A DNA stretch of 64,000 nucleotides from Pedobacter polysacchareus (GTDB taxonomy: Bacteria > Bacteroidota > Bacteroidia > Sphingobacteriales > Sphingobacteriaceae): NCBI RefSeq assembly GCF_019802255.1, contig NZ_JAHYSS010000001.1, positions 62,001 through 126,000 on the forward strand. Direction: 5' to 3'. The notes under the pieces were generated by a model that was not told the origin of the DNA, did not search any database, and was given only the letters and a program-made list of their open reading frames with translations. Each line of letters opens with the position of its first letter. Within the stretch, counting starts at the first letter, position 1. A program made the translations under genes and the position numbers. Positions 7,950 through 64,000 of the stretch are shown one piece after another.

Positions 7950-7970
7950 ACTTAAGTATTTAAACGAAAA

Positions 7971-9437: not shown

Positions 9438-9448
9438 TCCTAATTAAA

Positions 9449-12604: not shown

Positions 12605-12614
12605 AAAAAATAAA

Positions 12615-13213: not shown

Positions 13214-13256
13214 CCCTCAATTAACAATAAGTTAATCCCTAAAACTCAATTGAGGG
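13214..13256. repeat. Inverted repeat, 9-bp arms, with a nested hairpin
   Basis: The arms CCCTCAATT and AATTGAGGG are perfectly complementary and separated by 25 bases. The loop itself starts with a second palindrome overlapping the arm (TTAAC-AATAA-GTTAA, 13221-13235). There is no U-tract, so it does not look like an ordinary terminator. Confidence 0.5.
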
Positions 13257-13456
13257 AGAATGTAAAAACGGGGCATTCGTCCCTGAAAGCCCAAATAATA
13301 CATCGAACTAATACAATAGATCATAACGCTTTCAGCCCTTAGATGCAGTTGAATCACACAGTAACGTTGATCAAGGACAACAATAAGACCTAACTTTCTT
13401 TACATTAAAGACCCTTCGCTCAAGGGCAGGTCACCCAACGCAAAAAACACCAACAA

Positions 13457-13486
13457 AAAAGGCGCCCATTTTCATGGACGCCTTTT
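13457..13486 (-). terminator. Rho-independent terminator after SusD (13509-14957)
   Basis: The hairpin is AAAAGGCG, one mismatch, then CCAT, a four-base loop and the complementary arm. It lies 22 bases past the SusD stop. Read leftward, the stem continues into TTTTTT. It ends the 13509-18165 operon. Confidence 0.88.
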
Positions 13487-13508
13487 CAGAATTATTTAAG
13501 AGAATTAA

Positions 13509-14957: not shown

Positions 14958-14970
14958 GATTTACTAATTA

Positions 14971-41863: not shown

Positions 41864-41958
41864 TGGGATATAATTTTCATTACGCTTCATTGCTGTTTCA
41901 AAACTCATCATTAATGCTTTAAAATTCTTCATTGCTGTTTTAGATATGAAATGATGGC

Positions 41959-43376: not shown

Positions 43377-44600
43377 TTATTTCTTTACAATTTCTATTTG
43401 TCCATCTTCTTTGATCAGGAAGGCCAACTCATTTCCATAGGCTACCCCCAATTTATTTATCGCATAAGCCTTCAGGTAATACGGAATTCCCGTACTTAAA
43501 CCTTCCAGACTGATCACCGAAGCATCCGCTCCTGCGATGACTTTCGCATCTGCCAACGTTGGGTTTGGCACCGTACTCCAGCAAATTCCTGATTCAGTAA
43601 TTGCCGATTCGCCATCGGTGATTAAAGTCAGCCCGCTGAGCACGGCAGTGGTACTTTTAGCAATGACCGGTACGGTTTTCAGCAATGGCTTTTTAACCGG
43701 TGCATAACCATACCATTCCGTCAGTTTAAACGGAGCCTCCTGATCTGCCAGGTGACTCTTGCTATTCAACCATGACAGGGAGAACGGTACTTTTCTTTCT
43801 GTCTCATTGATCTCTCCGATGGCGAGCATATAATCTGCCACTATCTTCATACTGATCCCTCCGGAAGCCGGCAATGGATTCAGCTTCCAATCGGCATAAA
43901 GCGTTACGCTTGCTGTAATTGGGAGGCCAAAATTAAAAACAGTTTCCATATTTTGATCACTATACCAGGCATAAAAAGTACTGCCCGTTTTAGTGCTGGC
44001 AGCAGCTGTGATCATAGATTGATCTTCTACTACCTGTGAAGCGACAGCACTGCCGCCATTACTTATCCAGGTGATTGTATGGTACAATCTGGAGATCTCC
44101 AGAGCACCATTCACAAAAGCAAAGTCATAATTGGCTGCTTTTAAATCCCCTGCCAGGAAGAGTACCGGATAAACTCCCGGCAGACTTGCAGTTGCAGCTG
44201 TTGTACTCGTTAGGGGTTCTCCCTCTAATTTTGCTGCGGCTCTCAAGCTCAATTCCGTTTCGCCATATTTGAAGCCTTTCATTTGATAAGTAAATGATGG
44301 ATTCTCATGTCCGAAGAAACGTTTCAAGGTATCTCCATAAACCGTCAGTAAAGCTTTGCTGATGAGGAAGCTTTGCTCTGCCTCTACTTTTTCATAAAAC
44401 GCATTTCCTGACTGAACCGCTTTGATTAAGACTGTACCGGCGCCTTCAATTGTCGCCAGATCCCCGTTGATATCCAGCTGACCTTCTAACAATTCAAAAG
44501 TAATCGGCAATCCGGAAGTCACTGTTGCTTGTAGCTGGAAAGGGTCATCGCCATATTGTTTGTTTGTAATTGCGGCAAAATTGAGGATCTGCGTCGCTTT
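43377..44600 (-). other. C-terminal module block of the giant protein
   Basis: After the Ig array come a domain with TNKQYGDDPFQLQATVTSGL and AGTVLIKAVQSGNAFY, an MBG-type domain (LTVYGDTLKRFFGHENPSFT; VYPVLFLAGDLKAANYDFAF), an InlB-repeat-like unit (YHTITWISNGGSAVASQVVE; FYAWYSDQ), and a final FN3-like domain (ITESGICWSTVPNPT; GIPYYLKAYAINKLGVAYGN). This order is common at the ends of large Bacteroidetes and Firmicutes surface proteins. The chain stops right after the FN3-like domain. Confidence 0.75.
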
Positions 44601-47600: not shown

Positions 47601-50600
47601 TTTCCATTCTACGCCTACGGTGTCCGTAGTTCCATCATCAAACCTTGCTTTAATCGTTTGCGGCAATTCCACCACATCATCAAATGCGGTTGCATACTGC
47701 GTACTTACTCCTGCCACCGGAAGCACAGAAACGATGTTTTTACGGATGATGACTTGCTGATTTGCGAACAGGCGCTTACTGTTGGACGTCAATGGTTTCA
47801 GCTGCAAATCACCTTTTAAATCATATTCTCCACCTTTATTTGAGGTATAAGTAGATTTATCCCAGATCACGCTAAGGAAACCTGTAGTCTGATCATGGTA
47901 AGTTACCCGGATCGAAGACTGTAATGGCAAGTTTGCTGCCGGTGTATTCAGGGGTACTGTGATGTCTGCTAATGGTTCTATTTCAATGATGTTTTGCTGT
48001 GCATACACATCTACACTGGCCTCAAATTCTGCTGGATTGGCATGTTCTTCTTTCAATACCAAATCTGCATAAAGGCGGTACACACCCGATTTTAAATCGT
48101 AAGCACCCGGTCTCCAGATGAGCGTTAACATATCAGTCGTGACGCGGTCATCATAAGTTACCCTCACTTGTTTTGGCAATAATGGCAGGACTTCTGAGAA
48201 TGGTGTCCCTGATAAAACATATACCGGCGGTAATTCTTCCAGGGCAATGATGTAAGGGAAAACCGGATCTATTACGGCTACTTTCGCAGTGGCGGTCAGG
48301 TTGTTCCTGTTCATCTCCGGTTTAGGGACCATAATGTTCCCGATCAAGGTATACAGCCCTTCCGCATTTCCATTATAATCACCAGCCAGCCAGGTTACAG
48401 GGAACTTCACCTTGCTCTGATCACTCATCACTACCTCAACTTGCGGTACCAGGTTTAACTGGTCGAAAGGTGTGCCGGTATCAATTTTAACAGGGATCGG
48501 ATAAGGTTTCAGCACCTCAATAATATAAGGCTCCCTGGTGTTCACCTTCATTTTGATTTTCAGAGAACCACATACATTATCTCCGGCAACGGACAGGATA
48601 AACTCATACTCCCCAGCTTCGGTTGCTTCTCCGGAGATCAAACCTGCAGGGCTGAGCGTCATTCCATCCGGCAAAAGCCCTTGTGCTAAGGTAAACGTAT
48701 AATTTCCTGCAGTAGCCAAAGCGATCTGGTGGCTGTATTGGCTCCATTGATCCGCTTCAGGAAGCTGCTGTTCTGCATTTTCCAGGTATAATCCCTGGAA
48801 TTCATAAGCCCCGATATCTACAGTATTGTGCTGAATCCTTGGTGCACCGGCAAGATCCTGAGTGATCCCGTTGATTTTGCTGTTATCTCCCATATTAATG
48901 GAAGGTGAACATGGCGAAAGTGACAATTCATCCCCTTCAGGATTGTTAAACTGAGGGTCTTTACTTAAGATCAGTGTTCCTGTTTTATAACCATTTTCGA
49001 TGGTACTGTTGGCCACAACAATACCTGTATTGAGCTGATCGGCTACTTTGTTGCCACGTTTATTACCCCATAAAATGGTGTTGTAAATGTTCAGTGTTCC
49101 GGTATATCGATACACCCCTCCACCATATTGATTGGCGGCAGAAGTATTCGCATAAGCGATGCTGTTGTTAGCAATCGAGGTGTTCACCAGGTTGGTGATT
49201 CCATTATAATGGTACAATGCACCCCCATAATATCCACCGGTACTGGTCACCCTGTTTCTGCTGAATACTGCGTTATTGATGTTCAGTGTTCCCGAAGTCT
49301 GATAGATTGCTCCACCGTGCTGTACCGCAGTATTTCCGATAAATTTCGCATTATTGATGGTGGGTTTTCCATTGCTGGCATTATATAAAGCACCTCCGTA
49401 AATCGCAGCGGCATTGTCTTTAAAGGACACTTTATCCATTGTAACTGCCGAACTGATATTATACAATCCCGCACCATAACTTCCTTTATTCCCGATAAAT
49501 TTAACGTCTTTAAAGCTGATTACTGCCGAGTTGTACATCCCTCCGCCATAAGCATAGCCACCCGGACCTACCGTATTATTCTCCAGGGTGATGTTGCTGA
49601 ATTCCGATGCACCGCTATTGAAAACACCACCGCCATAATTATAAGCGACGTTGTCTTTAATCCATAGGTTCCTAAAGATGATCTTTCCTAAGGCATTGTA
49701 AATACCCGCTCCATAATACGCTTCATTGCTGGAATTAGATCCTGTTGCGGTCTTTCCACCAACAATACTGAATCCATCTACAATCGTTGCATTTGTTAAA
49801 GCAACACGGTTATAAAGGACATGGTAACTTCTTTTTTCTCCGCTTAAAATCGTCTCATTTGTTGTCGAAATTGTTTCCGGATCTCGCTCTGAAAACTCAT
49901 TTTCTGTGCCTGCAAAACCACCGAATAGTTTCACATTTTCTTTGAGGACATAGTAATCGGTGACTTTCAATCCAGGAATATATTTCCCTTTCGCCACCCA
50001 TACCGTATCGCCGGCAAGGGCAGAGCTGAGTCCTTTTTGGAGGTCAAGGAAACCATTGGTCCAGTCGGCACCATTGTCCATTCCTGTGGCGGCCTGGTTC
50101 ACATATATGCGTACCCCACCGATTCCTGGTCTGACGTCTACAGTGTATAGTCGGTTTCCACAAAGCATCCCATCGTTTGCGGTGACATTGAACGTATATG
50201 TTCCGCTATTGATCGGGCGGCCAGTAATCTGACCGGATTTGTTCATCAACAATCCATCTGGCAATTTACCGTAACTGATGGCGTAAGTGTAAGTACCGCT
50301 GCCACCGCTAGCGATGATCTGCTGTGTATACCGTTGTCCGCGGATCCCTTCCGGCAATGCCGCCGGGCCGACCATAATTCTACTTTGCTGGTTTTCATCA
50401 GCCCCCAGATCTACCGCATCTGCCATGATCCTGGTTTTACCATTGATGTCTTTTGTTAATCCAGCAGCAAATACATTGTCTCCCATATTGATTGCAGGCG
50501 AACAATCCGATAAAGAAAGGTCGTCGGGATCGGCAAGATTAAACATCGGATTTGCATCAATCACTGTTTTTCCGGCCAGGTAACCGCCCCTAATCAAGGC

Positions 50601-53600
50601 ATTGCTCACTTTAACATTCAGGTTCAGCTCATCAGCTATATTGTTGCCGCGTGTATTGCCCCAGAGAATACTGTTCTGCAGGTTTAACGTTCCCGCATTG
50701 CGATAAATTCCTCCTCCATATTTGGTTACTGCAGCATTCACATAAGCGATGCTGTTATTGCTGAAAGTTACGTTATTCAGATTGGAAGTAGCGGTGTACT
50801 GATACAAACCACCGCCGAAATAAGCAGCGTTACCCGTCACTTTATTCCTGCTGAATGCTGCATTGTTTAAAGTTAAAACAGCTGAATACTGGTATAAACC
50901 GCCTCCATGCTGTACCGAAGTATTGCCCATAAATTTAGCGCGATCCAGGGTGATTTTACCATTGTAAGCATAAAACCCACCACCTGTTAATACTGCTTTA
51001 TTCTCTTTAAATAACACATCATTCAACACCAATGCAGCCGTAGCATGGTACAATCCTCCACCGTTATTTGCAGTATTGCGGATGAACTCGATATGGTTCA
51101 TGACAGCGGCTCCTGAGTTGTACAATCCACCGCCATAAGCGTAGGAACTAGAGCTGATCGTATTGTTTTCAAAAGTGATCTTATTGAATACTGCTGCACC
51201 AGTATTGTACATTCCCGCACCATAACTGCTGGAGTTGTTATTTTTAATCCAGAGGTCCTTAAAGATTATGGCTCCCTGAACATTATAAATACCTGCACCG
51301 ATATAAGGTTCGCCGGTGCTTCCGCCAACTACGGTACGGCCACCAGTAATCGTGAAACCATCCAGCACCGTTGCCTTCGTTAGTGCTTTGTTGTTGAAGA
51401 CCACATGTCTGTTGATGTTTTTCCCATCTAAAATCGTTTGGTTAAGTGTTCTTGTATTTAGGCTATCTCTTTCTGAAAGCAGGCTTTCCCTGGCAGCAAA
51501 ACCACCGTATATTTTGACGCCTTCTTTCAACTGAAAGGTAGAAGTGATGAGCGGCCCTGGGCTATAAGTTCCTTTCGCTACCCATATTTCATCTCCGGCA
51601 ATCGATACTTTCAGTGCATTTTGTAAGTCGAGGTAAGCATTGCTCCAGGTACTCCCATTGTCTTGTCCCCCAATTGCGGCCTGGTTCACCAGGATGCGAA
51701 CGACTCCGCTTCCTGCTACAATTTCCATGTTGTACATCCGGTGTCCACATAAGTTGCCATCGGTAGCTTTGACTACAAAAGTATATTTACCGATCACGAT
51801 TGGATTACCGCTGATCAAGCCCGCAGGTGTCATTGAAAGTCCATCGGGAAGTTTTCCGGAAATCACCTGATAGGTATAGTTTCCGGTACTTCCTGTATGA
51901 CCAGATCCGGTTATTCCTTGTAACTGGACACTGATACTTTCTCCGCGATTTCCTTGTGGCATTGTCGCTGGCCTTACCTCAATTACTTCTTGCTGGTATT
52001 CTAAAGCCCCCATATCTACCCATTCAGACTTGATCCTTTCCGATCCCAGAAGGTCTTTTCCACCTGCAAGTACCAGTGTATTCTCTCCTGTATTTACTGC
52101 CGGCGAACATCCGGTAAGGCTTAAATCATCTGCTGCCGCGTTTACAAACATCGGTTCGGCATCAATGATGTTAGCACCTGCTGCATAACCTCCCTGAATC
52201 AGGGAATTGCTGACTTTAATATTCAAGTTGAGCTGATCTGGCGTTGCGGAGCCTCTCGTATTTCCCCAAAGCACACTATTATTCAAGGTTACCGTTCCTG
52301 CATTTCTAAAAATGGCCCCACCATAATTTACGGTTCCTGCCTTGAAATAATTGATGCTGTTGTTGCTAAAAGTGTTGTTAGTGAGCGTTGCTGTTCCGGA
52401 ATAGATAAAAATGGCACCGCCATAATTTCCTGCGGTTGAGGTCACACTATTCCTGCTAAACGTGCTATTGTCAAGTTTAAATGTACTGTTAGACCAGATC
52501 GCTCCACCATGTAAGACCGCGGTATTATTGGTAAATAAAGTTCTGTTTAAGGTTAATGTTCCGCTGGCATAAATTGCACCACCACTTCCTGCGGCACTAT
52601 TATTTTTAAAGGACACATTGGTAAATACCGGTGTGCCATTGGCGATAAAAACAGCGCCTCCGGTAGTGGATTTATTAGCGGTAAAACTGGCATTGGTGAT
52701 GGTTAAAACTGCTCCGGAATTGCTGTAGATCGCGCCTCCCTGTCCGTTGGTGATCGTGTTATTGTCGAATCGGACATCGATCAACTCGCCCAGCCCTGCA
52801 TTGAACAGGGCAGATCCGTAACCCGGATAACTGGCAGATTCAATGATCTTATTGTTTTCAAAAACACCTCCTTTGAGCTTAAATCCACCGGCATTATACA
52901 CCGCCGAACCTCTGGCATATTGCCCGGTTGTCCGGTTATTGCTGAAAATGATATTGCTGTAAGTTGCATTTCCGCTATGGTAAAGTCCACCTCCATAACT
53001 GGCGATATTATTCTTTATCCAAAGGTGATTGAAGACTGCAGCTCCGGCTGAATTGTAAATCCCAGCGCCATAATAATTGCCATTGTAATAATAGCTGTTG
53101 TAACTGGTTCCGGCATTTCCACCCTGGATTGAAAAACCATCCAGTACCGTTGCGTTGCTTAAGGCGGCGACGTTATAAACCACATGGAAACTCGACTTCC
53201 CCTGACTGCCATCAAGGATGGTTTCGTTCAACCCACGAACAGCTGTACTGTCTCTATCTGCCAATAAAATTTCTGTTCCTGCGAAACCACCATAAATCTT
53301 CACTCCTTCTTTTAAAGTGAAGGAAGAAGTGTTCAGCAGTCCCGGACTATAAGTTCCTTTGGCCACCCAAACTGTGTCTCCTGCGGAGGTTTGTGCCAAT
53401 GCAGGCTGCAAATCGGTAAAGGCATTCGCCCAGTCGCTGCCGTTGTTTTCTCCTTTTGCGGTCTGATGTACAAACAGTTTTCCTGAGCCATTTAAAATGT
53501 TGACTGTATACTGTCTGTTTCCGCTCATTGTACCATCGGTGGCACCGATTACGAAAGTATAACTGCCCACTACTGTTGGTGTGCCCTGTAGTTTTCCATT

Positions 53601-56600
53601 TGGCAGGAAGATCAATCCGGTAGGTAATTTACCCCCTTGCAGCGACCAGGTAACCGGTAAAGTCGTTCCCGTTGTGGTTAACTGGATGGCTGCGTAAGCG
53701 CCCCTTTTCAGAGGAGCAATAGTTACTGGATTCAACATCAGACTTTGTCCGCCTTCATTTTCATAAGCACCCAGGTCTATCAGGTCATTGATCAAACGCG
53801 GTTTTCCATCAAGGTCTTTATCAAATGCCTGCCAGCTATTTTTTCCGGCATCAATTGCCAGAGATCCACCTTTTAGCCTCAGGTTATCTGCGGCTGCATC
53901 TTCAAACATGGGATCTCCAAACTTGATGTCTTCCCCGGTTGAATAGTTATTCTGGATTAAAGTACTGCCGGCGATGATGCCTGCATTGAGTTGATCCATT
54001 ACCTTATTACCGCGTTTATTGCCCCATAGAATGCTATTATGAAGTGTTACCGTTCCTGAGTTGCGGAACAATGCCCCTCCGTAGCTTAAGGTTGCACTGG
54101 CATTGATGTAATTGATGCTGTTGTTGCTAAACGTGACGTTATTGATCAACGCTTCCCCGGAGTTGACAAACATTGCCCCGCCGTAATAAGCCGCTGTTGA
54201 GCTCACCTTATTTCGGCTGAATATACTGTTGTCGATTCTGATACTTCCAGTGCTCCAGATGGCTGCTCCATGTTGTCCGGAAGTGTTTTCAATAAAAGAA
54301 ACACGATTTAACACCGGGGTTCCCGCAGCATACATTGCCCCTCCAGTTCCGGTAGTACTGTTCCCTTTGAAGATGGCGTCTGTAATTTCCGGGAAGCCAT
54401 TGGCAATAAATAGCGCTCCACCTGTGCTTGCTTTATTGCCTGTAAATTCGGCTTTGCTGATCTTTATTCCAGCGCCAGAATTACTATAAATCGCACCTCC
54501 TTGTCCGTTGGCAAGCCTATTATTTAGGAATTTAACTTCTTCTAATTCCAGTAAACCCGTATTAAAGATTGCGGCTCCATAACCGGTATAACTAGCGGAT
54601 TCTATGATGCTATTTCCTTCAAAAATCCCTTTTGTTATGGCGAAACCTTTGGTATTATAAACCGCAGCACCGCGTGCATACGAGCCTTTAGCGATGTTAT
54701 TCGTAAACCTGATATTGGTATATTCCGCATCACCATTATGGTATAAACCTGCACCATAAGTAGCGATATTATTTTTAATCCATAGGTTTCTGAAGATCGC
54801 CGTTCCAGCGGTATTGTAAATTCCACCACCATAATAATTGGCATTAGAGGAAGAGGAATAAGTCGTTGCTGCAGCTCCTCCCTGAATACTGAAACCATCC
54901 AGTATCGTGGCCGAAGTTAAGGCCGTGGTATTGTAAACAACATGGTAGCTGGCCACTCCCTTACTTCCATCCAGGATCGTTTCATTCAGCGTTGCGATGT
55001 CATTTGATACCCTTTCGGTGATCAGCGTTTCTGTACCTGCAAAACCGCCATAAATCTTTACTCCCTCTTTTAGAGTGAAAAAGGAGCTTGCTGTGATTCC
55101 CGTACTGTAACTTCCTTTAGCCACCCAGATTTCATCGCCTGCTTTAACTTGTGCCATTGCCGCTTGTAAATCTGTGAAAGCATGTTGCCAATTGCTTCCG
55201 TTGTTATCTCCTGTTGCTGTTTGATGTACGAATAAGCGAACTGGTCCTTCTTTTACGTTTACGGTGTATTGTTTGTTGCCTGCGATGGTTCCGTCCCCGG
55301 CGCCGATCACGAAGGTATAGCTGCCTACTAAAGTTGGTGTTCCTCTTAATTTACCATCGGGTAAGAATACCAGCCCTGTGGGCAATTTGCCACCCTGGAA
55401 GCTCCAGGTAACTGGAGATGTGGTTCCGGTGTAGGTCAGCTGAAGGTCCAGGAATGCTCCTCTGCTGAGGTCTGGAATGACTCCCGGACTGATCAATAAT
55501 TGTCCGGCACCATCATGCTCGTAAGCACCCAGATCTACGACTTCATTAACCAGCCGTGGGTTTCCTGCCAGATCTTTGTCGAAAGTTTGCCAGTTGTTGT
55601 CTCCCACATTCATGGCTAATGAACCTCCTTTGAGTCTTAGGTTGTCTGTTAATGGGTCTTCAAACATCGGATCTCCGATTTTAATGTCGGTTCCGGTGGC
55701 ATATCCATTCTGGACAATCGCATTGCCGATAATGACACCTGCATTCAATTGATCGGCTACATTATTGCCTCGTTTGTTGTTCCAAAAGATACTATTGTGA
55801 ACATTCACCGTTCCAGAGCTGCGGAATAATGCGCCTCCATAGCTTAGGGTGGCACTGGCATTGACATAGCCAATACTGTTGCCGCTGAAACTCACATTGC
55901 TGATGTTTGTCGTTCCTGAACCCACATATATAGCTCCTCCATAATATGCGGCGGTAGCATTGATTTTATTCCTGCTGAAAATGGTGTTGTCTATTTTTAA
56001 AGTTCCGCTGCTCCAGATGGCGGCTCCATGCTGAAGCGAAGTATTTCCTGTAAAGCAGATACGGTTTAACAACATCGTTCCTGCGGAATAAATAGCTCCG
56101 CCTGTGCCCGTAGAAGCATTGTCTTTAAACCTGGCCTGGCTCAGGTCAGCAGTACCATTGGCAAAGAATAAAGCCCCGCCAGTAGTCGCTTTATTTCCAA
56201 TAAATTCAACTTCTTTAATTTTCACTGCTGCTCCAGATCCAGAGTAAATTGCTCCTCCCTGCCCACTGTTAATGGTATTGTTTAGGAATTTAACTTCATT
56301 TAGTTCTAAAGCTCCAACGTTAAAAATACCCGCTCCATATCCGGTATAGCTGGTTGATTCCGTGATCTTATTGTATTCAAAAACACCGTTCTGCAGCTTA
56401 AATCCAGCACCATTATAAACACCAGCCCCTCTTGCATAAGACCCTTTTGCTTCGTTATTGCTGAAAGTGATGTTCGTATAACTTGCGGTTCCCTGATGGA
56501 ACAAACCTGCTCCATAGGTAGCGATGTTATTTTTAATCCAAAGGTTGCGGAAGACTGCTGATCCTGCCGTATTGTAAATCCCACCACCATAATAATTGGC

Positions 56601-59600
56601 ATTGGAAGAAGAGGAGTAAGTAGTGGCTGCTTTTCCTCCCTGGATGCTGAAACCGTCTAACACGGTCGCCTCCGTTAAGGCTGCCGTATTGTACACCACG
56701 TGGTAACTGGCTACACCTTTATTACCTTCAAGAATGGTTTCATTGGCGTTGCGAATGGCGGTACTGTCGCGCTCTGCAAGCAGATTTTCTGTTCCTGCAA
56801 AACCACCATAAATCTTTACGCCTTCTTTTAGGATGAAGTAAGAACTGGCGGTCGGACCGGCACTATAACTTCCCTTCGCCACCCATATTTCATCCCCTGC
56901 TGAAGTTTGTGCCAGGGCCGGCTGCAGATCTGTAAAGGCATTGGCCCAGTTGCTTCCATTGTTTCCTCCGGTTGCCGCTTCATGCACAAATAACCGGGCT
57001 ATACCACCGGTCACGCTGACTGTATATTGCTTGCTGCCGATCAGCTGACCATCCGTTGCCGCAGCCACAAAAGTATAACTGCCAATTAAGGTGGGCACTC
57101 CTGTGATTAAGCCTTCAGGGGTTAACGTCAGTCCGACTGGTAAGCTACCCGATTGAACAATCCAGGTATAGTTTCCTGAACCACCGGTTGCGGTCATTTG
57201 AATCTTTGGATTTATTCCCCTTGGGAACGGGTTAAAGCTTGCTGGCAAGATTTTCAGCCCTGATCCACCTTGATTCTCGTAGGCACCAAGATCGATCTGA
57301 TCATTCACCACCCTTGCATTTCCTGACAGGTCAGTAGTACTGGTATTTTTGGCATTGTCTCCTGCGTCTATTCCTGGAGATCCGCCTTTTAGTTGTAAGT
57401 TATCGGCCTCTGCCTGCTGAAATAAAGGATCGCCAATCAGCACATTTGTTCCGCTGGCATATCCGCCCTGTACCAGCGAGTGGTACACCACTATGCCGGC
57501 ATTGAGCTGATCTGGGAGATCATTACCTCGTTTATTGCCCCAGAAAACACTGTTATTGACATTGATGACACCCGCACTGCGATACAATCCAGCACCTCCA
57601 ATGGTGGTCGCATGAGTAAAGGCAATCCGGTTGGCACTGAAGGTCACATTGTTTAGTGTTGCTGCTGCTGCAACAAACAAACCTCCGCCATAATATGCCC
57701 CAGCTGTAGTCACCGCATTTCTGCTGAACACCACATTTTCCAGGCTAGCCGTTCCAGACAGATGGTACATTCCACCTGCCTGCTGACCAGCACTGTTATT
57801 AATAAATGAGCTGTTGAATACATTGATCAGTCCGCCATTATGTGCAAATCCACCTGCGTAAAGCCTGGCAATATTGCCTTTAAATGTCGCATTGACTAAA
57901 GTGATGGAAGCGTTTAAATTGTACATACCCCCACCATAAGCACTGGCTTCGTTGTCCTGGAAAAGGATTCCTGTAAATACTGCAGGTCCCTGATTGTAGA
58001 TCCCTGCTCCTCTATCCGCTTTGTTATTTATAATTTGAAGGTTATTGAATACTGCTTTTACAGAGGCATAATTGTAGATACCACCACCGCGATGGTTGTC
58101 GGTATCTCCTCCCGATAAAGCTTGTCCGCCGCTAACCGTAAATCCATCCAATACGGTGGCGGTAGTTAAAGCGAGGTTGTTAAATAAGACGTGTCTGCTG
58201 GCCACTCCTTTGCTTCCATCTAAAATACTTTGGTTATCGGTATGGATGGTATTCGCTTGGCGCTCTTGAAGGGTCTTTTCTGTTCCGGCAAAACCGCCGT
58301 AAACTTTTACCCCTTCTTTCATGGTAAACCAGTCGGTGGCCAATGGCCCTGGGCTGTAATTTCCTTTCGCCACCCAGATCTGATCTCCGGTAATGGATTT
58401 GTTCCAGGCATTCTTTAAATCTGTGAATCCATGTTCCCAGCTGCTGCCATCATTATTACCGGATGCAGCGGCTGCATTGGCATATAAAACTGCAGCTGCA
58501 GGATTTACCAGTAACGTATATTGCTTGCTGCCCACCAATTCTCCGTCGGTTACACCGATCACAAAAATATAGGTTCCGGCAACCATTGGTCTACCAGAAA
58601 GCGCGCCATTTGGTTTAAGCACAATTCCGGATGGTAAGGTTCCTGAAGTCACTTTCCAGGTCAAGGCATTTGTAGAACCCGTTACCGTTAAAGGCACTTC
58701 CAATACCTCCCCGCGACTATAAGCGGATAAGCTCAATGGCGTAATGATCAGACTTGCTGTACCTTGATTTTCATAGGCACCCATATCTACCGTTTCGTTG
58801 ATTAAACGTGGGTTTCCATCCAGATCTTTTACGGTAGAGATCTTTGCATTGTTCCCCATATCTATCGCTGGAGATCCTCCTTTCAGGCGAAGGTTATCCG
58901 CTGCTGCGTTGACAAATAAAGGATCGCCGATCACGATGTTTGTACCGCCAGAATAACTGCCCTGAACAATACTCTGATCGATAGTCACTACCCCAGTAAT
59001 CTGATCTGGAAGGTTTGCTCCGTAAGTATTTCCCCAAAAAATACTGTTATAAATGGTAACGGCTCCGCTGTTGCGGTATAAAGCGCCACCACCTGCCGAA
59101 GCTCTGGCAATGCTGTTACCGCTAAAAGTCACGTTGATTAAGCTTGCATTTGCGCTGGCATAGATCGCAGCTCCATAAAAGGCACCGGTAGACGTCACCT
59201 TATTTCGGCTAAAGATCACGTTGTCCAATTTAGTCGCTCCTGCCAGATAAAATGCACCACCATGCTGCACAGATTCGTTGGCAATAAATGAAACGCGATC
59301 TAATACGCCATTCGCGCTACTGCTGTACAATGCACCGCCCGCACCAGTGGCTGTGTTTCTGATAAAGCTCACATCAGTCAATTCCAGCAGTCCTGTGGCT
59401 GAATACAGGGCTCCCCCAGTAAAGGCTGTATTTTCTATAAATGAGGTTTTAGAGATTTTCGAAGTCGCTCCTGCGGCATGGTAATAGGCACCACCCTGTG
59501 CATAAGTCGTTCCCTCCACCCTGTTGTTTTTAAACACCGTATTGCTCATATTTAAAACACCATAGTTGATCAGGGCACCAGCATAGGTACCCGTTCCTGC

Positions 59601-62600
59601 AGTCACCACATTGCTTTCAAAAGAGACACTGTCCAGATTTGCCGTTGCAGTCCCAATGTATAATCCTGCCGCCCTGCCATAAGTACCGGTGGTGGTATTT
59701 GCGACAAACTTTGTATTGCTCAATGTAATTGTACCCCCAGAAACCATCATACCTCCACCGTAAACGGCATTATTACCGGTAATGATGAGGTTGTTGAATA
59801 CGGGATTTCCCAGGCTGTTAAAAATTCCCGCACCATAATAATTTGCGCCCAGCGAACTGCTGTTGGTCATTAATGTTTTTCCCCCGCTAATGGTAAATCC
59901 ATCTAATAATGTCGCATTGCTTACCGCGATAGTATTGGAAACCACATGGTAGCTGGCTACCCCCTGACTACCATCAAGGATACTTTTATGAGTAGTGTGG
60001 ACATCCGATATTTTTCTGCTTTCCAGGCTTGCTTCTGTTCCGGCGAAGCCTCCGTAAATTTTAACACCTTCCTTTAAATTGAAAGTAGAGGTAGCGAGTA
60101 ATCCAGGGCTATATGTCCCTTTAGCCACCCAGATCTGATCACCAGCAATGGCTTGGGCAATGGCCAATTGTAAATCAGAATAGGCGTTTACCCAATCGCT
60201 GCCATCTTTTTTTCCAGTTGCCTTTTCATCCGTAAACAGGTGTGTACTGGCGGCATTAACGATGTACGTATATTGCTTGCTGCCGATAAACTGACCATCG
60301 GTTACCGAAAGCACGAAGGTATAACTGCCAGCAAGCATTGGCCGGCCAGTTAACCATCCTCCCGTACTCAGGGAAAGTCCCTGAGGCAATGCTCCTGAGG
60401 ACACGGTCCATGTTAATTTTCCTTCAGCTCCAGTTGCAGTAAATTGCTGGTTTAAAATAGTACCTCTGTTTATTGGGCTCAGTGTTGCCGGCAAAATACT
60501 CAGACTTGCTCCACCCTGGTTTTCATAAGCACCCATATCTACTTGCCCGTTGACCACCCTTTCATTGATGTCCAGATCCCTTGAAGTTCCTGTAGCCGCA
60601 TTATCACCAGCATCTATGGCTGCCGATCCGGCTTTCACCCGGAGGTTATCATTCGCTGCATCTGTAAATAATGGGTTTCCTATGGAGATATTGGTTCCCG
60701 CAGCGTAACCACCTTCTACGATGGAGTTGGCAATGGTTAAAGCGGGACCAGCTAGCTGATCTGCGACATTCCCCCCACGTTTATTGCCCCATAAAATACT
60801 GTTGTAGATTGCAGCTGTTCCCGATGCAGCCTTGAAAAAAGCGGCTCCGGTTGCTGTTGTGGCATGAACATAAGCGGTGGTATTGTTGCTGAAAGTAATG
60901 TTGGAAAGCGTAGATGTTCCTGAGGCATGGTACATTCCGGCACCATATCCATTGGTATTTGCCCCGGTAATTGCATTTCTGCTAAAGATGACATTGTCCA
61001 ATCTGACAATTCCACTGTTATACAGTCCGGCACCATGCTGTACCCCGATATTGGCAATAAAGGATCCGCGGTTGAGGCTGAAATTTACGGTAGTGTGCAC
61101 TCCAGCTCCTAAAGTGCTGGCGGTATTGCCTTTAAAGCTTACATCTTCTGCATCAATTACGCCATTATTCAAGATACCACCCCCATTTGTTAAGGAAATA
61201 TTATTTTGGAAATCACCTTTTCTAATGGTCAGCAAGCCTGTTCTATGGTATAAACCACCTCCACCACCGGTAGTCGCCTTGTTGCGTAAGAACTGAACAT
61301 CCTCCAGTTTTACCTCCGGAGTGTAATTGTACATCCCTCCTCCAATAATCGCCTCATTCTCGATGAAATTCAGCTTTCTAAAACTGGCCAGGGCATTCTG
61401 GTTGTATAGTCCACCGCCCTGAGCGTTACCACCAGACACGATGTTTTTTTCCATCCTGATATTTTCAAATGTAGATGGGCCATTGTTAAAAATCCCACCA
61501 CCGTAATGGTAGGCATTGTTATTTTTAATCCAAAGGTTTCTGAATACTGCCGTTCCTGCATTGTTGTAGATTCCGCCTCCATAATAAGCCGGACCGGAGC
61601 TATTGATGGCTGTTCTTCCTCCGCTGATGCTAAATCCATCTATGACCGTCGCTGCGGTTAAGGCCACTGCATTATTGACTACATGGTAACTTTTCCCATT
61701 TCCATTCAGGATGGATTCATTTGTTCCAAATAGGGTATTTGCATCTGCCACACGTTGTGTTAGGGCATCCTCAGTTCCTGCGAAACCACCATACATTTTA
61801 ACCCCTTCTTTCAGCGTGAATGTGGAAGTCAAGTCTGGTCCCGGGGAGTAATTCCCTTTGGCCACCCAGATTTCATCACCTGCTCCGGCTTGTGCCAGCG
61901 CAAGCTGTAAATCTGTAATTGCATGTGCCCAGTTATTTCCTGTCTTCGTTCCTGTTGCAGCTTCACGTACATATAAGCGTGCTGGTGCCTGCTGTACTTC
62001 GATTGTATATTGTTTAGATCCAATCAAATTGCCATCCGAAGCGGCAACAGCAAAAGTATATCCGCCAATCACCGAAACCATTGCGCGCCCATAGATTTTA
62101 CCTGCCGGAGAGATGAAAAGCCCGGTAGGAAGTTCTCCGGATAATAAGCTCCAGGTATAAGTCCCGCTCCCGCCAGTAACTTGTAGCTGGATGTTCTGCT
62201 CTTCACCGCGTACCAGTACCGGCAAGGTTGCTGGTGTAATTTTTAACGAAGCACCACCCTGGTTTTCATAAGCACCCTGATCAACAGTAGTATTATAAAA
62301 ACGTGGATTTCCTTCAATATCCTTTGTAGTCGTGGTATAGGAATTATTTCCTTTATCAATGGCCAAGGAGCCGTTTTTCAGGTTCAGGTCGTCGGTTGCG
62401 GCATTGGAGAATAATGGGTCTCCCACTAAAATAGCCGTTCCTGCTGCATAATCATCTTGAACCGTACTGTTCGCGATGGTGATTCCTGTATTCAATTGGT
62501 CAGGAACTCCAGCTGCTCTGGTATTTCCCCAGAAGATACTGTTGTACACTTTTACTGTTCCCGAAGCTCTGAACAATCCTGCTCCAGCATTTGCTGCGAC

Positions 62601-64000
62601 AGAAGCCACGCTGTTATTGCTGAAAGTAGCATTGGTCATATTTAATGTTCCACTGCCAATGTATACGCCAGCACCCGTAGCCGCTGTTCCTGTTCCTTTA
62701 TTACGGCTAAACACCACATTGTTCATGGTGTTCGTTACCGTTCCATAAAAACCTGCACCGCTTTGTACGGCAGTATTGCCAAGGAAGGATACGCGGTCCA
62801 GATCTATAATACCTGCGTTATTTATCGCTCCCGCATAAGTTACCGCAGCATTTTCTCTGAAAACAGCATCCGTAATTGTTACCGAACCCGTATTATAAAT
62901 TGCGCCTGAACTTGCATCTGATCTGTTGCTGATAAATTCAGCATTGCTGATGCTGAAACCAGTTCCTCCGGAACTATTAAATATGGCCCCAGCATAAGTA
63001 TTCCCCAGGTTGTTTTCAAATACCGCTTTATGGATAGAAACATTGGCTGCGGAAGTAAAAATCGCCCCGCCATAATTTGCCTGGTTTCCTCTGAAAATCA
63101 CATTATTCAGCACCAGATTCGCCCCTGTATTATAGAGACCGGCACCATAACGATTGCCTGTGAGCAGGATGTTATCTTCAAAAAGGACATTGTCTATTTT
63201 TGTTCCTGCTGCAAGGTTATAAAAGCCTGCTCCATATTGAGCTCCTTTATTCTTTTTGATGATCAGATTCCTGAAAGTTCCGTTCGCTGCTGCCGCAAGG
63301 TGGTTAATTCCCGCTCCGGAAGCATTGGTATATCCTCCGGAAATGGTAAAACCATCCAATAAAGTTTCTATCCCTAAAAACGTCGTGTTGTTGACTACAC
63401 GGCGGTTGAAATCGTTTCCGCTCAATTCGGTCTCGTGGAGGGTAAACTTACCATTGGCATCCGCAATACGGTCTGCCGTACTCGTTTCTGTGCCCGCAAA
63501 CCCACCATACATCTTTACTCCGGAAACCATATAAAACGAAGAATCCAGCTCTGCAACCGGCAGGTATTTTCCTTTAGCCACCCAAATCTCATCCCCATCT
63601 TTTGCCAGTGTCAATGCGCTTTGCAATCTCAAGAACCCGTTTTTCCAATCTACTCCATTGTTGATACCTGTAGCGGCCAGATTCACATGTAACCTGGTGG
63701 CTCCTGGATTAACAATGATGTTGTATTGTCTGGTTCCAACTTTAGCTCCCTGAACCGCACGCAATACAAAAATGTAGTTTCCGGCGATCATCGGAATTCC
63801 GCTGATCACACCTGTTTGCGTATTTAATGTCAATCCTAAAGGCAGTGCTCCTGTGAATAAAGACCATGTTGTTAGCTCTTGGCTATTGCTTAAACTAAAC
63901 TGCTGCTCCAGAATTGCTCCTCTGGTCATCGGCATTAATGTTGCCGGAAGGATGGTTAAAGAACCTGGAGTTCCCAATGGATTTTCTAATGCCCCTAAGT
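43377..64000 (-). CDS. Giant beta-helix / Ig-repeat surface protein, N-terminus beyond window edge
   Basis: An uninterrupted frame of 6,873 codons before the stop, still open at the right edge. The first visible residues (LGALENPLGTPGSL) match the end of a preceding repeat unit, so at least one more unit lies outside. Nine units of about 500-585 residues follow, each with a putative Ig domain (LP.GL.L...G.I.G.P...G.YTF.V.A.DG) and a right-handed beta-helix. The helix part carries IWVAKG.Y.PG, V.MYGGFAGTE, LDGF.I.GG, many GGA/GGG.YN and F..N motifs, then A(I/V)D.GDN and VD.GAYEN. A lone Ig domain, about 15 Big_4-like domains, an MBG-like pair, an InlB-repeat-like and an FN3-like domain complete it. 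The end (LAFLIKEDGQIEIVKK) lacks a recognisable type IX sorting domain. Likely a secreted or surface adhesin. Confidence 0.93.
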   Translation of the reverse strand, partial: LGALENPLGTPGSLTILPATLMPMTRGAILEQQFSLSNSQELTTWSLFTGALPLGLTLNTQTGVISGIPMIAGNYIFVLRAVQGAKVGTRQYNIIVNPGATRLHVNLAATGINNGVDWKNGFLRLQSALTLAKDGDEIWVAKGKYLPVAELDSSFYMVSGVKMYGGFAGTETSTADRIADANGKFTLHETELSGNDFNRRVVNNTTFLGIETLLDGFTISGGYTNASGAGINHLAAAANGTFRNLIIKKNKGAQYGAGFYNLAAGTKIDNVLFEDNILLTGNRYGAGLYNTGANLVLNNVIFRGNQANYGGAIFTSAANVSIHKAVFENNLGNTYAGAIFNSSGGTGFSISNAEFISNRSDASSGAIYNTGSVTITDAVFRENAAVTYAGAINNAGIIDLDRVSFLGNTAVQSGAGFYGTVTNTMNNVVFSRNKGTGTAATGAGVYIGSGTLNMTNATFSNNSVASVAANAGAGLFRASGTVKVYNSIFWGNTRAAGVPDQLNTGITIANSTVQDDYAAGTAILVGDPLFSNAATDDLNLKNGSLAIDKGNNSYTTTTKDIEGNPRFYNTTVDQGAYENQGGASLKITPATLPVLVRGEEQNIQLQVTGGSGTYTWSLLSGELPTGLFISPAGKIYGRAMVSVIGGYTFAVAASDGNLIGSKQYTIEVQQAPARLYVREAATGTKTGNNWAHAITDLQLALAQAGAGDEIWVAKGNYSPGPDLTSTFTLKEGVKMYGGFAGTEDALTQRVADANTLFGTNESILNGNGKSYHVVNNAVALTAATVIDGFSISGGRTAINSSGPAYYGGGIYNNAGTAVFRNLWIKNNNAYHYGGGIFNNGPSTFENIRMEKNIVSGGNAQGGGLYNQNALASFRKLNFIENEAIIGGGMYNYTPEVKLEDVQFLRNKATTGGGGGLYHRTGLLTIRKGDFQNNISLTNGGGILNNGVIDAEDVSFKGNTASTLGAGVHTTVNFSLNRGSFIANIGVQHGAGLYNSGIVRLDNVIFSRNAITGANTNGYGAGMYHASGTSTLSNITFSNNTTAYVHATTATGAAFFKAASGTAAIYNSILWGNKRGGNVADQLAGPALTIANSIVEGGYAAGTNISIGNPLFTDAANDNLRVKAGSAAIDAGDNAATGTSRDLDINERVVNGQVDMGAYENQGGASLSILPATLSPINRGTILNQQFTATGAEGKLTWTVSSGALPQGLSLSTGGWLTGRPMLAGSYTFVLSVTDGQFIGSKQYTYIVNAASTHLFTDEKATGKKDGSDWVNAYSDLQLAIAQAIAGDQIWVAKGTYSPGLLATSTFNLKEGVKIYGGFAGTEASLESRKISDVHTTHKSILDGSQGVASYHVVSNTIAVSNATLLDGFTISGGKTLMTNSSSLGANYYGAGIFNSLGNPVFNNLIITGNNAVYGGGMMVSGGTITLSNTKFVANTTTGTYGRAAGLYIGTATANLDSVSFESNVVTAGTGTYAGALINYGVLNMSNTVFKNNRVEGTTYAQGGAYYHAAGATSKISKTSFIENTAFTGGALYSATGLLELTDVSFIRNTATGAGGALYSSSANGVLDRVSFIANESVQHGGAFYLAGATKLDNVIFSRNKVTSTGAFYGAAIYASANASLINVTFSGNSIARASAGGGALYRNSGAVTIYNSIFWGNTYGANLPDQITGVVTIDQSIVQGSYSGGTNIVIGDPLFVNAAADNLRLKGGSPAIDMGNNAKISTVKDLDGNPRLINETVDMGAYENQGTASLIITPLSLSAYSRGEVLEVPLTVTGSTNALTWKVTSGTLPSGIVLKPNGALSGRPMVAGTYIFVIGVTDGELVGSKQYTLLVNPAAAVLYANAAAASGNNDGSSWEHGFTDLKNAWNKSITGDQIWVAKGNYSPGPLATDWFTMKEGVKVYGGFAGTEKTLQERQANTIHTDNQSILDGSKGVASRHVLFNNLALTTATVLDGFTVSGGQALSGGDTDNHRGGGIYNYASVKAVFNNLQIINNKADRGAGIYNQGPAVFTGILFQDNEASAYGGGMYNLNASITLVNATFKGNIARLYAGGFAHNGGLINVFNSSFINNSAGQQAGGMYHLSGTASLENVVFSRNAVTTAGAYYGGGLFVAAAATLNNVTFSANRIAFTHATTIGGAGLYRSAGVINVNNSVFWGNKRGNDLPDQLNAGIVVYHSLVQGGYASGTNVLIGDPLFQQAEADNLQLKGGSPGIDAGDNAKNTSTTDLSGNARVVNDQIDLGAYENQGGSGLKILPASFNPFPRGINPKIQMTATGGSGNYTWIVQSGSLPVGLTLTPEGLITGVPTLIGSYTFVAAATDGQLIGSKQYTVSVTGGIARLFVHEAATGGNNGSNWANAFTDLQPALAQTSAGDEIWVAKGSYSAGPTASSYFILKEGVKIYGGFAGTENLLAERDSTAIRNANETILEGNKGVASYHVVYNTAALTEATVLDGFSIQGGKAATTYSSSSNANYYGGGIYNTAGSAVFRNLWIKNNIATYGAGLFHQGTASYTNITFSNNEAKGSYARGAGVYNGAGFKLQNGVFEYNKITESTSYTGYGAGIFNVGALELNEVKFLNNTINSGQGGAIYSGSGAAVKIKEVEFIGNKATTGGALFFANGTADLSQARFKDNASTGTGGAIYSAGTMLLNRICFTGNTSLQHGAAIWSSGTLKIDNTIFSRNKINATAAYYGGAIYVGSGTTNISNVSFSGNSIGYVNASATLSYGGALFRSSGTVNVHNSIFWNNKRGNNVADQLNAGVIIGNAIVQNGYATGTDIKIGDPMFEDPLTDNLRLKGGSLAMNVGDNNWQTFDKDLAGNPRLVNEVVDLGAYEHDGAGQLLISPGVIPDLSRGAFLDLQLTYTGTTSPVTWSFQGGKLPTGLVFLPDGKLRGTPTLVGSYTFVIGAGDGTIAGNKQYTVNVKEGPVRLFVHQTATGDNNGSNWQHAFTDLQAAMAQVKAGDEIWVAKGSYSTGITASSFFTLKEGVKIYGGFAGTETLITERVSNDIATLNETILDGSKGVASYHVVYNTTALTSATILDGFSIQGGAAATTYSSSSNANYYGGGIYNTAGTAIFRNLWIKNNIATYGAGLYHNGDAEYTNIRFTNNIAKGSYARGAAVYNTKGFAITKGIFEGNSIIESASYTGYGAAIFNTGLLELEEVKFLNNRLANGQGGAIYSNSGAGIKISKAEFTGNKASTGGALFIANGFPEITDAIFKGNSTTGTGGAMYAAGTPVLNRVSFIENTSGQHGAAIWSTGSIRIDNSIFSRNKVSSTAAYYGGAMFVNSGEALINNVTFSNNSINYINASATLSYGGALFRNSGTVTLHNSILWGNKRGNKVMDQLNAGIIAGSTLIQNNYSTGEDIKFGDPMFEDAAADNLRLKGGSLAIDAGKNSWQAFDKDLDGKPRLINDLIDLGAYENEGGQSLMLNPVTIAPLKRGAYAAIQLTTTGTTLPVTWSLQGGKLPTGLIFLPNGKLQGTPTVVGSYTFVIGATDGTMSGNRQYTVNILNGSGKLFVHQTAKGENNGSDWANAFTDLQPALAQTSAGDTVWVAKGTYSPGLLNTSSFTLKEGVKIYGGFAGTEILLADRDSTAVRGLNETILDGSQGKSSFHVVYNVAALSNATVLDGFSIQGGNAGTSYNSYYYNGNYYGAGIYNSAGAAVFNHLWIKNNIASYGGGLYHSGNATYSNIIFSNNRTTGQYARGSAVYNAGGFKLKGGVFENNKIIESASYPGYGSALFNAGLGELIDVRFDNNTITNGQGGAIYSNSGAVLTITNASFTANKSTTGGAVFIANGTPVFTNVSFKNNSAAGSGGAIYASGTLTLNRTLFTNNTAVLHGGAIWSNSTFKLDNSTFSRNSVTSTAGNYGGAIFIYSGTATLTNNTFSNNSINYFKAGTVNYGGAIFRNAGTVTLNNSVLWGNTRGSATPDQLNLNIKVSNSLIQGGYAAGANIIDAEPMFVNAAADDLSLTGCSPAVNTGENTLVLAGGKDLLGSERIKSEWVDMGALEYQQEVIEVRPATMPQGNRGESISVQLQGITGSGHTGSTGNYTYQVISGKLPDGLSMTPAGLISGNPIVIGKYTFVVKATDGNLCGHRMYNMEIVAGSGVVRILVNQAAIGGQDNGSTWSNAYLDLQNALKVSIAGDEIWVAKGTYSPGPLITSTFQLKEGVKIYGGFAARESLLSERDSLNTRTLNQTILDGKNINRHVVFNNKALTKATVLDGFTITGGRTVVGGSTGEPYIGAGIYNVQGAIIFKDLWIKNNNSSSYGAGMYNTGAAVFNKITFENNTISSSSYAYGGGLYNSGAAVMNHIEFIRNTANNGGGLYHATAALVLNDVLFKENKAVLTGGGFYAYNGKITLDRAKFMGNTSVQHGGGLYQYSAVLTLNNAAFSRNKVTGNAAYFGGGLYQYTATSNLNNVTFSNNSIAYVNAAVTKYGGGIYRNAGTLNLQNSILWGNTRGNNIADELNLNVKVSNALIRGGYLAGKTVIDANPMFNLADPDDLSLSDCSPAINMGDNVFAAGLTKDINGKTRIMADAVDLGADENQQSRIMVGPAALPEGIRGQRYTQQIIASGGSGTYTYAISYGKLPDGLLMNKSGQITGRPINSGTYTFNVTANDGMLCGNRLYTVDVRPGIGGVRIYVNQAATGMDNGADWTNGFLDLQKGLSSALAGDTVWVAKGKYIPGLKVTDYYVLKENVKLFGGFAGTENEFSERDPETISTTNETILSGEKRSYHVLYNRVALTNATIVDGFSIVGGKTATGSNSSNEAYYGAGIYNALGKIIFRNLWIKDNVAYNYGGGVFNSGASEFSNITLENNTVGPGGYAYGGGMYNSAVISFKDVKFIGNKGSYGAGLYNISSAVTMDKVSFKDNAAAIYGGALYNASNGKPTINNAKFIGNTAVQHGGAIYQTSGTLNINNAVFSRNRVTSTGGYYGGALYHYNGITNLVNTSIANNSIAYANTSAANQYGGGVYRYTGTLNIYNTILWGNKRGNKVADQLNTGIVVANSTIENGYKTGTLILSKDPQFNNPEGDELSLSPCSPSINMGDNSKINGITQDLAGAPRIQHNTVDIGAYEFQGLYLENAEQQLPEADQWSQYSHQIALATAGNYTFTLAQGLLPDGMTLSPAGLISGEATEAGEYEFILSVAGDNVCGSLKIKMKVNTREPYIIEVLKPYPIPVKIDTGTPFDQLNLVPQVEVVMSDQSKVKFPVTWLAGDYNGNAEGLYTLIGNIMVPKPEMNRNNLTATAKVAVIDPVFPYIIALEELPPVYVLSGTPFSEVLPLLPKQVRVTYDDRVTTDMLTLIWRPGAYDLKSGVYRLYADLVLKEEHANPAEFEASVDVYAQQNIIEIEPLADITVPLNTPAANLPLQSSIRVTYHDQTTGFLSVIWDKSTYTSNKGGEYDLKGDLQLKPLTSNSKRLFANQQVIIRKNIVSVLPVAGVSTQYATAFDDVVELPQTIKARFDDGTTDTVGVEWKPGKYNPLVSADYNLSGKLLHNESIDNTGNLEAKIVLTVLPKPKNIVSIARPDSVHVAFGTKLNAIEALKLAIPVTYDDNSTGSLNMTWDTEGYDPLKPGNYTFDGDPILIPGVANKDVRSTSITIILGKKEVISVINPPLINVKYGTETDEIGLPDEVTVTYNDQSTGTEGVLWGSATYNRFQEGTYTFKGEIVIHDQIENPNLRYAEVLVKVGPKPLKVLTAAADSVNIPYGTTFTAAKLLFPKKALVTYDNGTSGSLNVTWMEGDYLADEPGAFQLVGELETPEGFINPDSVKASLKVNIGKRIIKSYLAPDPLTVFFGTDANTLILPDALIAEFVDGGRQDLGVTWNLTGYNGNLAAKYNVTGEFILPDDIENSKGIIPKIEITVLPRAKEIVSLIADTIEVAYGTKLETLVFPGTRNAKLDDGTNQDIPVMSLSFESLDYDETTAGTYLFEGELVLPQGVQNPGNLPAQVWVKVGRKAILKIATVAPLTVPYGTAFDALTLPESVKVTYNDQSEDLLSVDWAKGNYDEKIASTYILPGTMVVPTEIDNPNVLQPTISVTVAEKIRTLVSIATDTIQVANGTALIALGLPAKVTGLFDDGATEMLSISSWENSDYNPFETGYYRFMTKVMMPVNTENPNDVMALMEVKVAPRFVVAVAAVPDMIVPYGTLFANLALPPTVNVTYNNQQVEPLSVLWDAGNFDGNTAADYLLNGTLLPDSPEENKDNKTASIKITVQVPLLMINSVTVTTPVHFPLGTSKATVMTQLGTSLPVTYTTGATGLAGVTWESADFIEDEVGSFNFTGILDPADGASNPTDIMAKIQVIIDQKNIISVEESKALVDVYGKLFSALELPLSVKVTYDDQSTEDLPVLWEESAYQSNLLQQQTISGEVQLTNDVRNTLDLKAKIKITLQKDIDSVAVITPITVAYGTPFAGLGLPGRVEVTYNDGSKENLIVTWDPANYAAAPIGELLMVGDLALSPNTFNTTLQTAQVMIRIQKATQILNFAAITNKQYGDDPFQLQATVTSGLPITFELLEGQLDINGDLATIEGAGTVLIKAVQSGNAFYEKVEAEQSFLISKALLTVYGDTLKRFFGHENPSFTYQMKGFKYGETELSLRAAAKLEGEPLTSTTAATASLPGVYPVLFLAGDLKAANYDFAFVNGALEISRLYHTITWISNGGSAVASQVVEDQSMITAAASTKTGSTFYAWYSDQNMETVFNFGLPITASVTLYADWKLNPLPASGGISMKIVADYMLAIGEINETERKVPFSLSWLNSKSHLADQEAPFKLTEWYGYAPVKKPLLKTVPVIAKSTTAVLSGLTLITDGESAITESGICWSTVPNPTLADAKVIAGADASVISLEGLSTGIPYYLKAYAINKLGVAYGNELAFLIKEDGQIEIVKK
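44600..48530 (-). repeat. About fifteen tandem Big_4-like Ig domains
   Basis: Fifteen consecutive units of about 87 residues (262 bp) follow the pattern (I/V)...(V)PYGT.F..L.LP..V.VTY.D.S...L.V.W....Y.....G.Y.L.G.L..P....NP....A.I.V.V. The pattern fits the Bacterial Ig-like domain family Big_4. The copies are well diverged from each other at the protein level, unlike beta-helix units 5-7, so this array is older or selected for diversity. It probably forms a long stalk. Confidence 0.85.
48800..64000 (-). repeat. Nine tandem beta-helix plus Ig units (about 1.5-1.76 kb each)
   Basis: Unit borders, taken at the GAYENQGG-type junctions, fall near 62255, 60515, 58765, 57270, 55510, 53755, 51995, 50395 and 48800. 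Counting from the right edge, units 1-3 and 5-7 are about 1.74-1.76 kb, unit 4 about 1.50 kb and units 8-9 about 1.60 kb. Units 5, 6 and 7 are the most alike (shared FSIQGG, YYGGGIYNTAG and LWIKNNIA-YGAGL stretches). The helix coils carry F..N and GGA(I/L/M) motifs like those of chlamydial Pmp adhesins. The closing part of each unit resembles the region before 'choice-of-anchor Q' domains. Confidence 0.88.

Follow-up and report, generated by a model that had tools for sequence, protein, structure and literature searches.

The genome of Pedobacter polysacchareus encodes a giant exported protein of the β-helix adhesin kind with a new arrangement, in which as many as 12 tailspike-like units follow one another in a set order ahead of 15 Big_4 domains and the gene is locked to two genes resembling those of phage tail fibers. 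The protein is neither a Pmp autotransporter nor a recognized type IX secretion system (T9SS) cargo. The reading favored here, with a probability of about 0.58, is that the giant forms a very long, rigid, exported, non-enzymatic, and multivalent glycan-binding surface fiber, with the products of the two adjoining genes (genes 2 and 3) as possible trimeric partner heads.

General features of the giant gene

The genome totals 5.83 Mb and is split into 19 contigs. The window analyzed is a 64,000-nucleotide stretch of it (C1:62001-126000), and window numbering is used below. Within the window, the frame of the giant runs on the minus strand from 43377 to 63998, comprises 6,873 codons, and is open at the window edge. 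A preliminary description of this DNA had reported a stop-free frame of more than 6,870 codons, open at the edge, and a protein that probably exceeded 700 kDa, and both statements proved correct: the complete gene, of ~25 kb, has 8,418 codons (68633 to 43377) with zero internal stops or frameshifts, and the mature protein has a computed mass of 882 kDa. The upstream sequence supplies an ATG start at 68633 (C1:130633), 4.6 kb past the window edge, and a clear, typical Sec signal peptide, MRTSLFKAITFSILFFSALQITAQ, which has counterparts at the start of all full-length orthologs (about 11). The remaining five frames over the same DNA contain 319 to 553 stops, with longest open runs of 93 to 146 codons, which excludes chance as the source of the open frame. 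The isoelectric points differ along the protein, being acidic in the Big_4 region (pI 4.5) and the tail (pI 4.9) and near neutral in the unit region (pI 6.8). The features of the gene and its partners are listed in Table 1.

Elsewhere in the window, positions 3-18165 hold consecutive tandem SusC/SusD-type pairs (TonB-dependent receptor plus lipoprotein) on the minus strand, with no obvious enzyme among them in the window. Two overlapping long minus-strand ORFs in different frames (239 and 563 aa) are found at 23411-25574; the later part of the 239-aa ORF is lipoprotein-like and its start is probably called too early, and the 563-aa ORF has a repetitive Asn/Pro/Gln-rich C-terminus.

Table 1. 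Features of the giant gene and its operon partners within the window
Feature	Position	Strand	Residues (aa)	Remarks
Giant fiber gene, in-window part	43377..64000	-	about 1545-8418	Frame read on contig beyond window
Unit 4, β-helix + choice_anch_Q cap	62262..63692	-	1648-2124	Profile matches; unit 3 ends right at window edge
Unit 5	60519..61976	-	2220-2705	He_PIG Ig4 before it
Unit 6	58767..60239	-	2799-3289	He_PIG Ig5 before it
Unit 7	57273..58484	-	3384-3787	Shortest unit; Ig6 before it
Unit 8	55515..56993	-	3881-4373	Ig7 before it; AlphaFold model of Ig7 + unit 8 covers 55515-57272
Unit 9	53757..55235	-	4467-4959	
Unit 10	51996..53477	-	5053-5546	
Unit 11	50391..51692	-	5648-6081	
Unit 12	48798..50108	-	6176-6612	
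He_PIG Ig12	48528..48797	-		Last of 12 Ig spacers
15 tandem Big_4 domains	44598..48527	-	6703-8012	Same number in 11 orthologs compared in full
Ig-like tail domain	44349..44597	-	8013-8095	AlphaFold pLDDT about 90
MBG_2 domain	44100..44348	-	8096-8178	Profile match
Flg_new / Listeria-Bacteroides repeat	43893..44081	-	8185-8247	Relative of internalin-B B-repeat
64-aa element (ISMKIVADYML...LNSKSHL...KLTEWYGY)	43680..43871	-		Only predicted helices of the tail
C-terminal FN3-like domain	43380..43691	-	8315-8418	Ends IEIVKK; no recognized T9SS sorting domain
Gene 2	41959..43371	-	470 in total	Signal peptide; GDLxGTYPNPxI tail-fiber-type stem; C-terminal ~240-aa domain
Gene 3	40934..41932	-	332 in total	Signal peptide; tail-fiber-like N-domain; S74 chaperone with SDIRLK; C-terminal coiled-coil-like segment

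The unit array

Each unit of the giant is a right-handed β-helix ending in a choice-of-anchor-Q cap and followed by a He_PIG Ig domain of ~94 aa. The whole protein has 12 such units of 404 to 494 aa, of which nine (units 4 to 12) lie inside the window, as had been described, and units 1 to 3 lie upstream of it. The β-helices show pairwise identities of 37% to 72%. In Pfam and NCBIfam profile scans, run on three overlapping pieces spanning the whole protein, NF041518 (the choice-of-anchor Q cap) matched every piece, with E values down to 6e-53, and TIGR01376 (the Pmp coil repeat) scored over its cut-off. The F..N and GGA-type motifs noticed earlier are far more frequent in the unit region than in shuffled sequences, with 97 FxxN observed against 27 expected and 66 GG[AGS]-type motifs against 11. 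Tandem Repeats Finder detected no arrays in the giant, as the units have diverged too far from one another and exceed the maximum period of 500 bases that the program allows. The full unit occurs in this gene alone within its own genome, and single units were found in 8 of 79 sampled genomes of other Bacteroidota, mostly in much smaller proteins. The choice-of-anchor Q proteins of Bacteroidota (NF041518) share the unit with the giant, namely an IYV..ATG..NG..W leader, a β-helix, and an anchor-Q cap; however, these relatives carry a single unit in roughly 600 to 2,000 aa, one of them with a T9SS type-A tail, whereas the giant has 10 to 12 tandem units and lacks such a tail.

An AlphaFold model of Ig7 plus unit 8, built with 31 aligned units, gave an Ig sandwich and a long β-helix with a pLDDT of 85 and a pTM of 0.86. 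With a signal peptide at the start of the gene, no frameshift, and a confidently predicted β-helix, neither a disrupted or signal-less frame nor a unit of another fold was found, and the core of the preliminary description therefore stands. The best structural matches of the modeled unit are the AlgE mannuronan epimerases (Z 29, with an rmsd of 2.4-2.9 across ~310 residues), followed by the Sf6 and CBA120 tailspikes (Z 27), RbmB and the PL6 lyases (Z 26 each), and the pneumococcal β-helix adhesin PfbA (Z 22.7). The modeled Ig spacer resembles the cadherin-like domain of the staphylococcal adhesin SraP (rmsd 2.0 Å, 27% identity). The fold of a single unit is thus like that of phage tailspikes (Sf6, P22, and CBA120), alginate epimerases, and PL6 lyases, with Z scores of 22 to 29. 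Phage tailspikes, however, are trimers, mostly with active sites, whereas the blades of the giant follow one another on a single chain, and no candidate catalytic residue is shared by all of them.

Given that AlgE epimerases, PL6 lyases, and RbmB are the closest folds, and that four SusC/SusD-type pairs lie 22 to 40 kb from the giant within the window, the units could instead be active polysaccharide lyases or epimerases and the giant a multi-enzyme for the breakdown of surface polysaccharides. This is quite unlikely, because the SusCD genes are outside the conserved operon, the Pfam and NCBIfam scans returned zero carbohydrate-enzyme profile matches on the giant, and the central helix has no position at which a lysine, arginine, histidine, or tyrosine is common to all 12 aligned units, although individual units could still be active. 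Most of the letters conserved across the 12 units are Gly, Asn, or Phe or belong to capping residues. As judged from residue conservation, the units probably serve binding or structure rather than catalysis. The apparent lack of conserved catalytic residues, together with the size and rigidity of the giant, would also fit a passive surface coat or decoy that is no adhesin but protects the cell from phage, predators, or desiccation. Such a role seems improbable, as the unit at each position remains distinct from species to species, a pattern more in keeping with specific binding than with bulk.

The Big_4 domains, the C-terminal tail, and the route of export

The number of Big_4 domains, estimated as about fifteen in the preliminary description, is exactly 15: when any one of them is left out, a profile built from the remaining 14 recovers it at E <= 1e-17 (E values for single sequences). 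They are followed by an Ig-like domain, MBG_2, Flg_new, a 64-residue helical element, and an FN3-like domain, in this order. An AlphaFold model of the C-terminal 407 residues (pLDDT 57, pTM 0.32) is usable only for the first ~82 and the last ~100 residues. Among 60 sampled genomes of the genus, the 64-aa element is confined to those that bear the giant and occurs once in each. It was suspected to be the phage ISMxxVxxELG...ISMSDLYGK motif, but a scan of viral contigs with the element found no relative, so this presumed identity is unproven.

Chlamydial Pmp and type V adhesins share with the giant a right-handed β-helix with FxxN and GGA[ILV]-type coil motifs, export, and large size. The Pmp likeness proposed previously holds for these coil motifs, including the TIGR01376 match, but does not extend to the domain organization. 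Neither autotransporter barrel nor PMP_M profiles matched anywhere over the whole giant in its three overlapping pieces. The giant has twelve separate helices split by Ig spacers and a Big_4/FN3 C-terminus in place of a middle domain and C-terminal barrel, and its identification as a Pmp autotransporter (type V) was rejected. Two-partner secretion of the FhaB/CdiA type is likewise not indicated: the Pfam and NCBIfam scans of the giant contain no hemagglutinin TPS domain, and the conserved operon, whose members are the giant, gene 2, and gene 3 alone, does not include a TpsB gene. A role in gliding, which had also been suggested, found no support.

An ordinary T9SS-exported adhesin, in which the FN3-like end (IEIVKK) would be an unrecognized sorting domain and genes 2 and 3 unrelated passengers, is a possibility of some weight, though one that we lean against. 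The organism has a T9SS, with SprA at G000:C1:647900-654898, and the very C-terminus of the giant is conserved in all orthologs; in addition, a single-unit homolog of another lineage (L099) ends in a true type-A T9SS domain. However, the type A (TIGR04183) and type B (TIGR04131) profiles, which find two type-A and nine type-B loci elsewhere in the genome, gave no match on the giant, its last domain is mostly internal, and also tandem, in other Pedobacter proteins, and genes 2 and 3 are kept with the giant in 12/12 genomes. How this 882-kDa Sec substrate, in which no known sorting domain was recognized, exits a Bacteroidota cell is a question of interest in itself, and passage through the outer membrane is the weak point of the favored reading.

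The same genome has further very long frames. A type-B T9SS domain at G000:C14:780656-780904 closes an open frame of 5,794 codons, and the genome thus encodes several giant exported proteins. A second giant ORF of 4,945 aa (L028/L029; G000:C16:296057-310894) has ~32 FN3-like repeats, which are relatives of the domain that ends the window's giant, and is adjoined by a PorP/SprF gene, a CHU_C type IX signal protein, and a 1,060-aa S74 tail-fiber-like protein. It forms another neighborhood of a giant and a tail-fiber-like gene, there with T9SS parts.

Genes 2 and 3 and their phage relatives

The order giant, gene 2, gene 3 is kept in 12/12 genomes, with a gap of 4 to 9 bp between the giant and gene 2. 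Gene 2 products of giant-bearing genomes range from 361 to 474 aa. The GDLxGTYPNPxI stem gives a weak DUF5907 match below the cut-off, and the ~240-aa C-terminal domain has relatives in viral (Bacteroidota phage) contigs. Gene 3 matches the S74 profile PF13884 (E 3.6e-12), which denotes an intramolecular chaperone of the self-cleaving, trimerizing type, and, strongly, tail-fiber profiles; its N-domain resembles the phage profiles phrog_23630 and phrog_25379, and its S74 motif, SD[IV]R[LI]K (a form of SDxxxK), is intact in 12/12 genomes. On one contig (L080), adjacent gene-2-like and gene-3-like genes directly follow baseplate-hub and tail-collar genes; their products have signal-peptide-like N-termini and share 36% to 37% identity with those of the window over the aligned parts. 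A comparable pair is present in a prophage of genome G160 (L082). These two loci (L080:5857-9164 and L082:5854-9493, the latter equal to G160:C3:94165-97804) represent a Bacteroidota phage/prophage tail-fiber-like pair with Sec-type signal peptides. Such signal peptides are odd for virion proteins, and the products of the pair may instead be exported by the lysogen. Relatives of the β-helix plus anchor-Q unit are also found in phage contigs, one adjoining a baseplate-hub gene. Gene 2, gene 3, and the unit each have phage relatives, and thus every part of this three-gene cassette is akin to phage tail parts.

The closest experimentally studied precedent for gene 3 is the mosaic adhesive trimer (MAT) family of Bdellovibrio bacteriovorus, in which an S74 member self-cleaves at the serine of SDxxxK, and tested MATs are surface displayed, one of them binding glycans (PMC10769870). 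Gene 3 shares with the MAT fibers a signal peptide, a tail-fiber-like character, and a C-terminal S74 domain with SDxxxK. It differs in that it belongs to a different phylum and is strictly linked to a giant β-helix gene and gene 2.

The phage relatives, which lie near tail or baseplate genes in Bacteroidota phage contigs, also suggest that the cassette could be a domesticated phage structure derived from a tail module, the giant being a host-made tail-like fiber for attacking or gripping other cells. This origin is unlikely, since capsid, tail tube, sheath, and baseplate genes are all missing beside the cassette, the phage relatives of the unit are distant (27% to 35%), and the He_PIG/Big_4 array is absent from the phage loci examined. 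In addition, single units are not confined to phages, since bacterial proteins contain them as well, and one of these proteins is a T9SS cargo.

Distribution and evolution of the giant

Relatives were searched with gene 2 as the probe over 400 genomes of the family. A scan with the C-terminus of the giant identified nine genomes, all Pedobacter, including P. gandavensis, P. nyackensis, P. hiemivivus, and strain BAL39. In all, the giant is present in 12 Pedobacter genomes, so that at least 11 others share its architecture, and the 11 copies that were read completely measure 7,324 to 8,460 aa. It is accessory, as the majority of the genomes in the genus are without it. The number of units is 12, 11, or 10, and there are always 15 Big_4 domains (11 compared). 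In a tree of all units, clustering follows position and not species, except for the unit 8/9 pair and for units 2 and 3, which in one clade arose by a duplication and subsequently mixed within species. On these sequence relationships, the array appears old and ordered, in contrast to the common picture of repetitive adhesins that freely expand and contract. The dN/dS of the giant is 0.09 at a dS of 1.3, based on two close orthologs, and 0.05 to 0.15 in every segment with an estimable dS, which indicates strong purifying selection along its whole length. The three N-terminal units change fastest, and the last six units and first Big_4 domains change slowest.

The cassette lies in different surroundings in several genomes (G012, G026, G432, and G345). 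Upstream of the giant (L010:9355-11386) are a sigma-factor-like gene of the ECF type (189 aa) and a second gene, of 477 aa, with the look of a membrane or anti-sigma partner. An M3-like peptidase stands between these genes and the giant, and this synteny is seen in several giant-bearing genomes. In another genome, the peptidase beside the cassette is in two pieces of 457 and 223 aa (L050/L051; G340:C1:7126403-7128529), which indicates a possibly broken gene or a sequencing error.

Proposed function and comparison with other giant proteins

In the favored reading, that of a non-enzymatic glycan-binding fiber, the chain would cross the outer membrane after Sec export and remain on or near the cell. 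The earlier suggestion of a very large surface or secreted fiber is well supported as to a very large exported fiber; a surface location we infer. The acidic Big_4 stalk would be proximal to the cell and the faster-changing N-terminal units would point outward, an orientation proposed because the stalk is acidic and slower changing. If straight, the giant might reach roughly 200 to 250 nm, an estimate from general rises of 4.8 Å per β-helix coil and ~4 nm per Ig domain rather than a computed length. The β-helix blades may bind polysaccharide without cutting it, since no potentially catalytic polar residue is conserved across all units, and twelve non-identical blades could together grip the glycans of plant, algal, fungal, or bacterial envelopes in a multivalent and multi-specific manner. 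Genes 2 and 3 would form separate, MAT-like trimeric fibers that add binding heads or dock on the tail of the giant, and self-cleavage of the gene 3 S74 chaperone would yield self-processing trimeric heads. That the cassette is displayed on the surface, binds glycans, and assembles with its partners is in each case a prediction.

Huge bacterial surface proteins as such are already known (PMC11573180; PMC12863079). Giant1-5 of Apilactobacillus kunkeei are extracellular proteins of 3,000 to 8,000 aa, and Giant1-4 have an N-terminal beta-solenoid, with glycan adhesion inferred, which makes them similar to the Pedobacter giant. They differ from it in that they are Gram-positive proteins with an N-terminal solenoid domain rather than an ordered array, and the abstract on them mentions no phage-tail-like partners (PMC12863079). 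In the open-access literature, no description of "choice-of-anchor Q" or of the Pedobacter giant or cassette was found.

The cassette is of interest because a bacterial protein of very large size is bound here to one particular conserved operon, in which its partners are phage-tail-like, and because tailspike-like blades arranged in a fixed order might each read a member of a set of glycans. A more far-reaching and still doubtful proposal is that the cassette is a new bacterial surface-recognition machine, in which a scaffold with a length of at least about 200 nm bears twelve ordered tailspike-like blades and is combined with a co-opted phage tail-fiber pair that processes itself into trimeric heads. 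If this is true, a free-living Bacteroidota cell would display phage-style receptor-binding parts to recognize other cells or polysaccharides.
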